Source of the DNA: Bacillota bacterium
GTDB lineage: Bacteria; Bacillota; Sulfobacillia; Symbiobacteriales; Symbiobacteriaceae
Direction of reading: 5' to 3'
Length of the DNA stretch: 64,000 nt
Assembly: GCA_023623185.1 (NCBI GenBank)
Contig: JAMNXV010000132.1
Span: forward strand, 1 to 64,000
Shown here: positions 12,795-56,733 of the stretch, one piece after another
Layout: every line of letters begins with the position of its first letter
Numbering within the stretch: the stretch's first letter is position 1
Translations under genes and position numbers: made by a program
The notes under the pieces: model-generated
Databases searched by the model: none
Told to the model about the DNA's origin: nothing
The model's input: only the letters and a program-made list of their open reading frames with translations

Positions 12795-12825
12795 TTCATA
12801 GAGACTGTGGCCCACCGCCTGCGAC

Positions 12826-12884
12826 GGGAACCGCAGGTTTTACGCTTCCGCGTTCGAGCGAAAGCGAAAAACTTGCGGCTCCCA
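12826..12884. repeat. Palindromic element, family copy 1
   Basis: GGGAACCGCAGGTTTTACGCTTCCGCGTTCGAGCGAAAGCGAAAAACTTGCGGCTCCCA; imperfect inverted repeat. Confidence 0.85.
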
Positions 12885-12931
12885 ACCAGGGGGAGCGCCC
12901 CCGACCTCGCAGACCCCCGCCTGACCGGGTC

Positions 12932-12962
12932 ATTATGTCAACCGAACTGGGGTATTATGTCA
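12932..12962 (+). repeat. Two ATTATGTCA direct repeats 22 bp apart
   Basis: ATTATGTCA at 12932-12940 and 12954-12962 (CATTATGTCAACCGAACTGGGGTATTATGTCATCTAAC). Confidence 0.8.
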
Positions 12963-13036
12963 TCTAACGGGCGCCCGCCGCCGGCGAACACGCAGCGTCG
13001 ACACCTAGATCCTCCTTCAACCCGCCCGCCGCCACC

Positions 13037-13096
13037 TGGGAACCGCAGGTTTTACGCTTCCGCGTTCGAGCGAAAGCGGAAAACTTGCGGTTCCCA
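13037..13096. repeat. Palindromic element, family copy 2
   Basis: TGGGAACCGCAGGTTTTACGCTTCCGCGTTCGAGCGAAAGCGGAAAACTTGCGGTTCCCA, near-identical to copy 1. Confidence 0.88.
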
Positions 13097-13100
13097 CTGT

Positions 13101-13149
13101 TGACAGGGCTATTCGGCGTTCGAGCACGCCGAATAGCCCTGTCAGTTTT
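13101..13149 (+). terminator. Strong hairpin terminator
   Basis: TGACAGGGCTATTCGGCG-ttcgagca-CGCCGAATAGCCCTGTCA followed by GTTTTC; perfect 18-bp stem. Confidence 0.8.
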
Positions 13150-47888: not shown

Positions 47889-48398
47889 GTGCTCTGGTGG
47901 AGGCGGAACCGGCAGACGGCGCAGCCTCCGGCCGCGCCGCAGCGCCGGATTCTCATCCCGGAAAACATCTATCGCCGCATGATCAACCACTGCTATGAGG
48001 AGCGCCCGCTGGAGGCCTGCGGCCTTCTGGTGGGCGCCGCCGGCCACGTTTCGGCCGGCTACGCCACGGACAACCAGGCGCGCAGTCCAGTCCTGTACCG
48101 GGTGGACGACTACCAGCTTCTGGCCACGGCCGAGGAGGCCGAACGGCGGGGCCAGGAGATCGCGGCGATCTACCATTCCCACGTGACCAGCGACCCGGTT
48201 CCCTCGCAGACCGATATCGCCCAGGCCACCTGGCCCGAAGCCTTCTACATCATCGTGTCGCTGAAGGGCCGGCGGCCCCGGGTGCGCGCCTGGCGCATCG
48301 TGGACGGGCAGGTGTCGGAGCACCGCATCGTCGTCGTCCGCCACTACGACGGCGAGTGGTACGATCTGCGCCAGGCGGTGCGCTCGGCAGGCGGCTGA
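47889..48398 (+). CDS. M67 (JAMM/Mov34) metallopeptidase family protein
   Basis: EERPLEACGLLVG...IYHSHVTSDPVPSQTDIAQA; JAMM HxH-x-S-x2-D retained. Confidence 0.88.
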   Translation: MLWWRRNRQTAQPPAAPQRRILIPENIYRRMINHCYEERPLEACGLLVGAAGHVSAGYATDNQARSPVLYRVDDYQLLATAEEAERRGQEIAAIYHSHVTSDPVPSQTDIAQATWPEAFYIIVSLKGRRPRVRAWRIVDGQVSEHRIVVVRHYDGEWYDLRQAVRSAGG

Positions 48399-48480: not shown

Positions 48481-48939
48481 ATGGCGATTTCGGAACGCAG
48501 GCTGATCATCGGGCGGCGGCTGCTGCAGCGGGTGCTGGAGCACTGCCTGGAGGAGAAGCCGCTGGAGGCCTGTGGCATCCTGGCAGGGCGGGAGGGCGTC
48601 GTCACCTCCGTCTTCGCCACCGACAACGCGAGGCGGAGCCCCGTCTTCTACGAGGTGGATCCCGAACAGCAGGAGGAGGCCCTGCGGCAGATCGCAGAGC
48701 GGGGCGAGGAACTCCTGGGCATCTACCACTCCCACCCCAGGGCGCCGGCGGTGCCGTCCCAGAACGACATCGAGCAGGCCGTACATTACCCCGACGCGGT
48801 CCGGCTGATCATCTCGCTGAACGGGCCGACGGACGTCGGGGCGTTCCTCATCGCGAGCGGGCAGGCAGTGAAGGTGCCTCTCCAGATCATGGAGGGGCTG
48901 GAGGGCCAGTTCCACGACCTGCGCGTGTGGCGCGGGTGA
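48481..48939 (+). CDS. M67 (JAMM/Mov34) metallopeptidase family protein
   Basis: EEKPLEACGILAG...IYHSHPRAPAVPSQNDIEQAVHYPDAVRLIISL. Confidence 0.9.
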   Translation: MAISERRLIIGRRLLQRVLEHCLEEKPLEACGILAGREGVVTSVFATDNARRSPVFYEVDPEQQEEALRQIAERGEELLGIYHSHPRAPAVPSQNDIEQAVHYPDAVRLIISLNGPTDVGAFLIASGQAVKVPLQIMEGLEGQFHDLRVWRG

Positions 48940-50556: not shown

Positions 50557-50640
50557 CGGAGGCGACCGGACACGGCGCTCCTTGTGCGAGCCGGCGGCGC
50601 ATGGCCCCCGGTCACCCGCAGGAAGCGAATAGCCGACGTG

Positions 50641-50671
50641 AACCCCGTGGGCGGCCTGCGCCCACGGGGTT
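50641..50671 (+). terminator. Terminator-like hairpin after ECF sigma operon
   Basis: AACCCCGTGGGC-ggcctgc-GCCCACGGGGTT. Confidence 0.6.
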
Positions 50672-50767
50672 CGTCGTTAGGTCGTCGCTGACGTTGTTGC
50701 TCAGGGTGGGCGTCGGGATCCCTGTACTCCTACGGCGCCGTGACTGGGTCTGAGCGCTGGCCGTGGA

Positions 50768-50827
50768 TGGGAACCGCAAGTTTTCCGCTTTGGTCAGAAG
50801 GCGGAAGCGAAAAAGTGGCGGTTCCCA
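50768..50827. repeat. Palindromic element, family copy 3
   Basis: TGGGAACCGCAAGTTTTCCGCTTTGGTCAGAAGGCGGAAGCGAAAAAGTGGCGGTTCCCA. Confidence 0.87.
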
Positions 50828-50902
50828 GGTTGCGGCGGTGGGGTCGGCGTGGGGCTCCGGGTGTTGGTGCCGCGTGGTGGTCGGCGCCGAACGCTGGCTG
50901 GG

Positions 50903-50933
50903 TTACATAATATGGCGATTTGGTTGACATAAC
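50903..50933 (-). repeat. Two ATTATGTAA/GTTATGTCA direct repeats 22 bp apart (minus strand)
   Basis: TTACATAAT 50903-50911 and TGACATAAC 50925-50933; reverse complement of the 12.93 kb motif. Confidence 0.75.
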
Positions 50934-50980
50934 GTCCGGGTTAGGAAGCGGTCAGCGGGCCAGGGGTCGGTTGCCCTGGC

Positions 50981-51040
50981 TGGGAACCGCAAGTTTTCCC
51001 CTTTGGTCAGAAGGCGGAAGCGAAAAAGTGGCGGTTCCCA
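50981..51040. repeat. Palindromic element, family copy 4
   Basis: TGGGAACCGCAAGTTTTCCCCTTTGGTCAGAAGGCGGAAGCGAAAAAGTGGCGGTTCCCA. Confidence 0.87.
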
Positions 51041-51230
51041 GGTTGCGGCGGTGGGGTCGGCGGGGTGGCCGGGGTGCTGCAGTGGGGTGGCGGGGAGACA
51101 GTTGTTGGTGCCGCGGGGCCGGAATCGTAGGCGAGACAGCACTAGGGTGTGAAGTCTGGAGCCGCCGGGGCAGTGGCCCACTTATGAGCATTTGTGAAGG
51201 TCGAGAGAACGCCGCGACCAAACAGTGCAG

Positions 51231-51267
51231 AAGAACCCCGTGGGCACCCCATGCCCACGGGGTTCTT
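51231..51267 (-). terminator. Terminator-like hairpin after LCP gene
   Basis: AAGAACCCCGTGGGC-accccat-GCCCACGGGGTTCTT perfect 15-bp stem. Confidence 0.65.
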
Positions 51268-51280
51268 CGCATGACCTATG

Positions 51281-54588: not shown

Positions 54589-55380
54589 GTGCGAATCACT
54601 CTGATGAGACGAGAGGTGACGGACTTGCTGCTGACCTTTCTGCTGAGCCTCTCGGACGGCACGGGCCAGCGGGGCCCCTCGCCCGCGGAGCGGCTGCTCG
54701 GACCAGCCCGGTCCGGCGACGCGGCCGCCCGCGAAGAGCTGATCCGCGCCTACACGCCGCTCGTCCTGCGGGTGGGCAGCCAGGTCACAGGCCGGTACCT
54801 CACGGTGGGGCGGGACGAGGAGGTCTCCGTGGGCCTGATCGCCCTCAACGAGGCCATCGACAAGTACGACCCCGACAAGGGCGGCGCATTCGTCCCCTTC
54901 GCGGAATTGGTGATCAGGCGGCGGCTCGTCGACTTCTACCGGCGGAGCAAGGGCCGGGCGGAGGTGCCGCTCAGCGAGTTCGAAACCGAAGACGACGAGG
55001 GCAACGCCCTGCACGGGCTGGAGATGCAGGAGGCCATCGCGGAGCACCAGCGACAGGTTGAGGCCGAGGAGCGGCGGCAGGAGATCGCCCGGTACGCCCG
55101 GCGGCTGGCCGAATTTGGCATCCGCTTCAGCGACCTGGTGCAGGCCTCTCCCAAGCACGCCGATGCCCGGGAGCGGGCGATGGCCATCGCCCGGCTGGTG
55201 GCGGAGGATCCACTGCTCGCCCAGCACCTGCTGACCCGGCGTGAGCTGCCCCTGAAACAGCTGGAGCCGCGGGCCGGGGTCAGCCGCAAGACGCTGGAAC
55301 GGCAGCGCAAGTACATCATCGCCGTCGCCTTGCTTCTCCTGGAGGACTTTGTTTACCTGCGCGGCTATATTGCGGTTTAG
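54589..55380 (+). CDS. sigI: RNA polymerase sigma-I factor
   Basis: REELIRAYTPLVLRVGSQVTGRYLTVGRDEEVSVGLIALNEAIDKYDPDKGGAFVPFAELVIRRRLVDFYRR; followed by RsgI-type gene. Confidence 0.9.
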   Translation: MRITLMRREVTDLLLTFLLSLSDGTGQRGPSPAERLLGPARSGDAAAREELIRAYTPLVLRVGSQVTGRYLTVGRDEEVSVGLIALNEAIDKYDPDKGGAFVPFAELVIRRRLVDFYRRSKGRAEVPLSEFETEDDEGNALHGLEMQEAIAEHQRQVEAEERRQEIARYARRLAEFGIRFSDLVQASPKHADARERAMAIARLVAEDPLLAQHLLTRRELPLKQLEPRAGVSRKTLERQRKYIIAVALLLLEDFVYLRGYIAV

Positions 55381-56733
55381 GTGCACGAGGAGGCATCGCT
55401 TATGCAGAAGGGCATTCTGCTGGAGGTGGAGGGGAGAACCGGGATTGTCCTCACCCCCGAGGGCGAGTTCCGCCGCGTCCCCCTGCCCGCCGGCGATCCG
55501 GCGGTGGGCGATGAGATCCTCGTGCCCGAGGCCGGCGCCGAACCCTGGCGGTGGACCTGGGGCTGGGTGGCGGCGGCCGCCGCGGTGCTCCTGATGGTCC
55601 TCTCGCCCGTCGGCTACTGGCAGTGGAGCCTCGGCCAGCCGGCCGCGCTGGTGATGATCGACATCAACCCGAGCGTTGAGCTCACCGTGAACGGCCGGCG
55701 GCACGTCGTGGAAGCTCAGGGGCTGAATCCCGATGGGCAGGAGGTCCTCGAGCAGGTGGAGTGGCGGCGTCAACCGGTCGAGGATGTGGCAAGGGCCATC
55801 GCCGCGCAGGCCATTCAGCTCGGGAAGCTAAACCCCGCCGCCGATGACAGCGCCGTTGTGGTGGCGGTGGCGCCCCTGGGGGGGAGGACCCTGCCCGGCA
55901 GCCTTTCGCAGACGATCGTCGAGCAGTCGCGCACCGCCCTGCGGGAGGTGGTCGCGGAGGAGGCCGAGAGCCAGGGCGCGGCGCCCCAGGCAGGCGTGGC
56001 CGTGCTGGAGGCGACGGCGGACGAGGTGGAGGAGGCCCGCCGGCAGGACCTCACGGTGCCGAAGCTGCTCATCCTGGAGGAGGTGCAGGCCGATCATCCG
56101 GAGGTGACGGCTGACGCCATCCGGGCGGTACCCCCCGGGCAGTTCCTGAAATCGCTGGGCATTCACCCCAGCGAGGTGTTCAGCCGTGCGGAGCAGAGGC
56201 GCACCCAGGCGGGGCCCGGCAACCGGGCCAATGCGGACGACGACGATGATGACGACGACCGCGGCCGGCCGGGGCGGGGGAACCAGAATAACCCCGGCAA
56301 TGGCAACCCGGGTAAGGGCAACCCTGGCAAGGACAGCCCTGGCAAGGACAACCCGGGTAAGGACAAACCCGGCAAGGACAAACCCGGCAAGGACAACCCC
56401 GGCAAGGACAACCCGGGTAAGGACAAACCCGGCAAGGACAGCCCTGGCAAGGACAACCCCGGCAGGGACAACCCCGGCAAGGTCAACCCTGGACCTGGCA
56501 AGGACAACCCAGGCAAGGACAAACCCGTGAAGGACAACCCCGGCAAGAGCAAGCCCGGCCGCGGCGGCGATGACGACGACGACCGCCCCCGACCCGGGCA
56601 GGGGAACCAGAGCAATCCCGGCAAGGGAAACCCCGGGAAAGGCAATCAGGGCAGCCCCGGACAGGGGAACCAGGGTCGACCCGGGCAGGCAAACCCGGGC
56701 AACCCTGGCAGTGGCGCGAATCGAGGGAGGTAG
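55381..56733 (+). CDS. RsgI-type anti-sigma factor with PGKDN-repeat ectodomain
   Basis: QKGILLEVEGRTGIVLTPEGEFRRVPLP N-domain, TM, MIDINPSVELTVNGRRHVVEAQGLN; then GKDNPGKDKP repeats. Confidence 0.88.
   Translation: MHEEASLMQKGILLEVEGRTGIVLTPEGEFRRVPLPAGDPAVGDEILVPEAGAEPWRWTWGWVAAAAAVLLMVLSPVGYWQWSLGQPAALVMIDINPSVELTVNGRRHVVEAQGLNPDGQEVLEQVEWRRQPVEDVARAIAAQAIQLGKLNPAADDSAVVVAVAPLGGRTLPGSLSQTIVEQSRTALREVVAEEAESQGAAPQAGVAVLEATADEVEEARRQDLTVPKLLILEEVQADHPEVTADAIRAVPPGQFLKSLGIHPSEVFSRAEQRRTQAGPGNRANADDDDDDDDRGRPGRGNQNNPGNGNPGKGNPGKDSPGKDNPGKDKPGKDKPGKDNPGKDNPGKDKPGKDSPGKDNPGRDNPGKVNPGPGKDNPGKDKPVKDNPGKSKPGRGGDDDDDRPRPGQGNQSNPGKGNPGKGNQGSPGQGNQGRPGQANPGNPGSGANRGR
56292..56560 (+). repeat. 15-nt coding tandem repeat (GGCAAGGACAACCCC-type)
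   Basis: About 15+ imperfect copies encoding GKDNP/GKDKP/GKDSP. Confidence 0.9.

Follow-up and report, generated by a model that had tools for sequence, protein, structure and literature searches.

Tandem arrays of 60-bp palindromes with paired half-sites: a candidate genus-restricted intergenic DNA repeat family in Symbiobacteriaceae

Introduction

Intergenic repeats with a modular or tandem organization are represented in mycobacteria by MIRU and in pneumococci by BOX elements. REP elements consist of a palindrome of 20–40 bp that carries a GTAG or CGTC tag (PMC3733652). STAR elements proper, known from staphylococci, bear a short GC-rich motif. They are clustered intergenic direct repeats with tandem units of about 50 nt, locus-specific spacers, local expansion and contraction and species-specific positions, and the paper describing them reports no site common to species (PMC3532100).

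The locus described here, element B, is located at positions 50768–51040 of the window, by which the whole analyzed stretch of 64,000 nucleotides is meant. The window belongs to a draft genome (G000; 3.4 Mb, 226 contigs, 88% complete), which was compared with the genomes of two congeners, G001 and G002. Element B is probably, if by a modest margin of confidence, a short array of two hairpins and one full spacer from a family of genus-restricted intergenic tandem DNA repeats. In behavior, not in sequence, STAR elements appear to be the closest described case. The arrays of this family are likewise intergenic clusters with local expansion, and their spacers are alike within a locus and unlike between loci (0.79 vs. 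0.44). Most array positions are species-specific, with one long-type site being common to G000 and G002. In contrast to STAR elements, the unit, 188–223 bp in length, combines paired half-sites with a palindrome of 60 bp, a species-wide consensus is common to most arrays, and several are surrounded by twin terminators. The RAYT-mobilized REP/REPIN elements and BIMEs (PMC3733652, PMC3116915) are also palindromic, intergenic and clustered; unlike in these, the palindromes are longer and have the ends TGGGAACC, the order is head-to-tail, a spacer of ~150 bp is repeated together with the palindrome, and no Y1/RAYT gene was found in the genus. CRISPR arrays resemble the family in their regularly spaced palindromic repeats and in having n + 1 repeats per n spacers, whereas the spacers seen here are copies of each other, the repeats are 60 bp long and acquisition of spacers is not implied. 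MIRU and BOX share the intergenic modular or tandem arrangement and are set apart through their different unit anatomy.

Results

Direct reading of the sequence showed that element B contains two 60-bp palindromes spaced 213 bp apart, and the coordinates and letters given for them in the earlier note were correct. The features of the element are as follows.

50768–50827, plus strand: palindrome 1, an imperfect inverted repeat of 60 bp with 22 of 30 Watson-Crick pairs, member of the hairpin model
50828–50980, plus strand: spacer of unit 1, whose folding alone is unremarkable (z about −1)
50901–50933, minus strand: core with the direct half-sites TTATGTCAACC and TTATGTAACC, 22 bp apart (sequence and pattern search)
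50981–51040, plus strand: palindrome 2, with one difference from palindrome 1 that breaks a stem pair
51041–51093, plus strand: decaying start of a further unit, 3′ of palindrome 2 (repeat family D4)

The single G/C difference between the palindromes concerns letter 20 of 60 (identity 59/60). Each of them is directly followed on its 3′ side by GGTTGCGGCGGTGGGGTCGGCG; the leading A which had been counted to this following sequence still belongs to the palindrome, as its final base. On the minus strand, 50901–50933 reads GTTATGTCAACCAAATCGCCATATTATGTAACC and includes two TTATGT at a spacing of exactly 22 bp, as had been claimed for the half-sites; on this strand the half-site pair of the spacer, both members being of the GACATAA type, reads GTTATGTCAACC...TTATGTAACC at that 22-bp spacing. 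The segments 50755–50880 and 50968–51093 are 87% identical, and two spurious ORFs over element B had no match in Pfam.

Two further observations concern the surroundings of element B. The adjacent genes at 47889–48398 and 48481–48939 are small, similar to each other and arranged in tandem, and look like putative JAB/Mov34-type metalloproteases. Downstream of a sigma-factor-like gene (54589–55380), tandem repeats of 15 nt at 56285–56588 encode the Lys/Gly/Pro/Asp-rich NPGKD tail of a membrane protein.

Element A (about 12826–13096) lies 38 kb away from element B and runs in the opposite direction.

13036–13096, minus strand: palindrome 1, belonging to the family of element B, in opposite orientation
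12933–12967, plus strand: core of element A, TTATGTCAACC-N11-TTATGTCATCTAA (pattern search)
12824–12884, minus strand: palindrome 2, likewise belonging to the family of element B

A perfect, very strong 19-bp stem-loop, TGACAGGGCTATTCGGCGT, is located directly behind element A at 13101–13144.

Element A is an inverted relative of element B with 72–74% identity (BLAST: 74% over 288 nt, E 4.8e-44). Their inverted alignment, which places element A at 12826–12884 and 13038–13096, has arms of 77 nt which are 84% complementary, in agreement with the proposal of one architecture in two orientations. When the four hairpins of both elements were folded as single-stranded DNA, z-scores ranged from −4.5 to −7.2, and none of 200 shuffles was as stable. 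TTATGTCAACC occurs exactly in A and B, at a chance expectation of 0.24 per window even if one mismatch is allowed. These z-scores, the rarity of TTATGTCAACC and dozens of copies found by profile models place the observation beyond chance, and it is confirmed. The first palindromes of A and B are identical at 51 of 60 positions; of their 30 symmetric pairs, 8 differ, seven through a change on one side and one through changes on both. None of the eight is a Watson-Crick pair in both elements, and the earlier note was wrong in describing compensated stem changes. The statement that the similarity does not stem from recent duplication holds for A and B as old relatives of each other, but not for the two palindromes within each element, which are recent local duplicates (59/60 in element B).

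Hairpin covariance models, built first from 16 and then from 40 hairpins, revealed that the family is not confined to these two loci: many further ones were found in the same genome and in both congeners. In G000, the profile models detected dozens more copies with E-values down to 1e-17 or better. Taken over BLAST, pattern and covariance searches, G000 carries about a dozen long-type arrays as well as singles, with 2–5 palindromes per array, a period of 188–223 bp and roughly 45 hairpins. A second, related family with a period of ~115 bp is present in all three genomes.

C28, G000: long-type array of 5 palindromes
C207, G000: long-type arrays at 56 kb (2 palindromes) and at 90 kb (3 palindromes)
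C150, G000: long-type array of at least 2 palindromes
C34–C186, G000: long-type array interrupted by a break in the assembly; both contigs adjoin by the gene order of G002
C89, G000: long-type arrays C89a and C89b, with several palindromes
G002, 950.3–952.4 kb: one diverged long-type array of 11 units
G001: one diverged long-type array of 3 units
C207a, C83, C145 and C43, G000: ~115-bp family
1.06, 2.60 and 3.13 Mb, G002: ~115-bp family
End of contig C17, G001: ~115-bp family, a pair spaced 118 bp
L102:3815–4107, L172:4606–5243, L273:2080–2513 and L276:3577–4177: loci of the ~115-bp family with the hairpin core ATTTYCACTTSG...GAAGTNGAAAT

According to a visual comparison of the sequence downstream, the short-type arrays L273 of G000 and L276 of G002 seem to share a common site. 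A separate tandem array of 107–140 bp is found upstream of the hairpin array of G002, at L167:3241–3824.

No convincing relatives outside the genus were detected in the genomes of the class. A pattern of the hairpin arms yielded nine matches in 11.3 million genome contigs, none of them a convincing palindrome of the family, one match in viral contigs, which does not fold, and none in phages and plasmids. The literature searched, in which few subscription papers were covered, held no account of repeats in this genus. A new, genus-specific family of intergenic repeats is the best reading.

A typical unit consists of the palindrome of ~60 bp, about 74 bp, the half-site pair and another stretch of about 75 bp that leads to the next palindrome. 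The half-sites are direct GACRTAA repeats 22 bp apart, corresponding to two helical turns, and in G000 the pair is positioned at about +74/+94 after nearly all non-terminal hairpins. The first half-site is of the GACATAA type and follows the hairpin after 74 ± 1 nt in most G000 arrays (64–85 nt overall); the second, GTTGACRTAAC, follows the first after 22 nt. A strict pattern of this pair occurs 11 times in G000, always within arrays, and gave one unrelated-looking match in the remaining 153 genomes from this class. The paired core was also considered as the site of a shared regulator, a reading rejected on the confinement of the strict pair to arrays in G000. The half-site core is not universal in the family: each G002 unit has only one site, which is GTCAACATAAC-like, and units of G001 are devoid of the pair. 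None of the ORFs inside the arrays was scored as a gene. A TTGACA overlaps the core but is not accompanied by a −10 element at 16–18 nt, and apart from one weak promoter match away from this TTGACA no convincing promoter was found inside an array.

The unit identity of 0.79 within arrays compared to 0.44 between arrays shows that arrays grow by local duplication. In multi-unit arrays, whole units including the spacer are 70–84% identical within the array. Apart from C89b, the orthologous intergenic sites of the G000 arrays that were located in G001 and G002 through neighboring genes and then read contain no hairpins, and the site orthologous to the G001 array is hairpin-free in G000 and G002. 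C89b and the 11-unit array of G002 occupy one and the same site, framed by eight genes with 86–94% protein identity. A single, vertically inherited sequence at this site was considered and rejected, given that the units are hardly more alike than those of unrelated arrays: C89b units show an identity of 0.48–0.60 to most other G000 arrays versus 0.41 to the G002 units. Most arrays follow a species-specific consensus, while C186 and C91 of G000 fit this species-wise pattern poorly (0.31–0.47 to other arrays). Judged from these identities, either arrays seem to be homogenized within each genome, or the site of C89b and the G002 array may have been hit twice.

Discussion

We lean towards the view that the family is a non-autonomous, mostly selfish DNA repeat restricted to this genus, which spreads and then expands locally. 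A unit would enter a further intergenic location, in many cases at a gene's terminator, in a manner that places this terminator on either side of the insert. There it would multiply by slippage or unequal crossing-over, favored by the palindromes, and continued spread or gene conversion would maintain the similarity across the genome. Palindrome and paired half-sites would serve as a dock for a mobilizing protein or for a binding protein used by the host. A search for transposases or integrases, in which Y1 was the class examined, linked none to the family. A more far-reaching version, which is possible yet rather unlikely, takes the arrays as satellite-like bacterial DNA: palindromic tandem monomers of ~200 bp, homogenized within the species and bearing a paired putative protein-binding box, whose entry would target an intrinsic terminator and leave the insert flanked by two copies of it.

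Selection by the host could be an equally good explanation for the conserved half-site pair and for an array that persists at one position in two species. Arrays could then be host-selected protein-binding DNA that organizes the nucleoid or chromosome, with XerD or a related recombinase as candidate and a loading or unloading site for the chromosome-folding machinery as possible role; we regard this as possible, yet rather unlikely. It draws on the constant spacing of the pair over two helical turns and on the half-site TTATGTCAAC, which resembles the XerD arm of dif. Two likely dif sites bear on this resemblance.

G002:C1:1875689 (L231): likely dif site of G002, ACGTCCGATAATATATGTTATGTCAAGG, at 0.526 of the 3,566,135-bp chromosome
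G001:C1:190386 (L241): likely dif site of G001, ACGTCCGATAATATATGTTATGTAGAG, diverging after TTATGT

The dif-like site of G002 has the 9-mer TTATGTCAA in common with the core, and G001 carries the dif-like sequence given above. However, the likeness to the XerD arm amounts to this one 9-mer, and the own dif of G000 was not found. While dif is composed of an XerC and an XerD arm, inverted to each other around a center of 6–8 bp, the half-sites are repeated directly at a distance of 22 bp and include no XerC arm. As many cores read TTACGTC, which alters the TTATGT part, and as the sites are direct repeats, the link to XerD is kept as a lead only. The motif is moreover missing from the G001 arrays and reduced to one copy in the G002 units, and there is no polarity, since A and B are opposed to each other at a distance of 38 kb.

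The favored reading of a spreading DNA repeat makes use of the stem-loops that flank several arrays. For element B these are:

50640–50672, plus strand: left terminator-like stem-loop, GAACCCCGTGGGCG-GCCTG-CGCCCACGGGGTTC (stem comparison)
51230–51268, minus strand: right terminator-like stem-loop, GAAGAACCCCGTGGGCA, of the convergent LytR-CpsA-Psr gene (stem comparison)

Both stems are identical over 13 bp. Twin stems of this kind occur at four sites (B, C89a, C89b/G002L and C34–C186), with a stem sequence that varies by site. At the empty congener sites that were read for B and C89a, a single stem-loop of this kind is present. With at least nine perfect pairs required and small numbers of gaps compared in the DNA analyzed, three of five convergent gene gaps with an array exhibited twin stems, as opposed to none of 20 distinct array-free gaps. 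This pattern exceeds chance sharing of stems of 9–13 bp. Beyond the terminator stems no clean target duplication could be mapped because the array boundaries have decayed. That the duplicated terminators predate the arrays, which would then have collected between them by independent insertion in each lineage, appears unlikely. At C89b/G002L the stems (GACCCCGGCGC on the left, ACCCCGGCGCC on the right) are indeed conserved between the species and the array sequence is not, as this order of events would have it; the single terminator of the inspected empty sites and the lack of twin stems in all 20 array-free convergent gaps speak against it.

It is quite improbable that the arrays encode structured non-coding RNAs with one hairpin per unit, even though the palindrome folds strongly as RNA of either strand (z −6.8 and −5.9). 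RNA folding of the spacer was no better than that of shuffles, a convincing internal promoter is absent, and an Rfam search gave nothing near any gathering score. The stem covariation that the earlier note proposed to test was absent from the 16 close copies (0 stem pairs) and weak across the 40 hairpins of three species, where 69 double-changed cells compared to 48.9 in shuffled data and 15 pairs compared to 13.5. The latter signal exceeds that of shuffled data slightly and that of slid controls clearly, and palindromic symmetry has therefore been kept over longer times. Mismatches did not show a preference for G-U wobbles (52 G:T vs. 77 A:C). Going by these alignments, the palindrome appears to be conserved mainly as sequence and symmetry. 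The lack of a G-U bias and of an Rfam match and the unremarkable spacer folding favor a DNA element over an RNA.

That the arrays are REP/REPIN-type elements or palindrome-associated MITEs mobilized by a Y1 transposase (IS200/IS605 or RAYT) is very improbable. They are palindromic, intergenic, clustered and multi-copy like REPs, but the palindromes have 60 bp and no GTAG/CGTC tag, compared to 20–40 bp in REPs (PMC3733652). MITEs are marked by the terminal inverted repeats of a parent IS and by a short target duplication; the arrays show hairpins at both ends in direct orientation and a duplicated flanking terminator stem at four sites, and no parent element was identified. The REP/RAYT route, well known for palindromic intergenic repeats, is unsupported, as the genus yielded no Y1 transposase: Y1_Tnp (PF01797) is absent from G000 (only 88% complete), G001, G002 (one of these congeners being a complete single contig) and two further genomes of the taxonomic family, whereas 5 of the 14 controls matched.

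Compact bacterial genomes are not expected to carry satellite-like repeats. The species-wise similarity of the arrays, their empty and occupied sites and the duplicated terminators make the origin of such a repeat testable with regard to the enzyme that spreads it, the targeting of terminators and the binding to the half-sites. In addition, the arrays offer ready length-variable markers for the genus.
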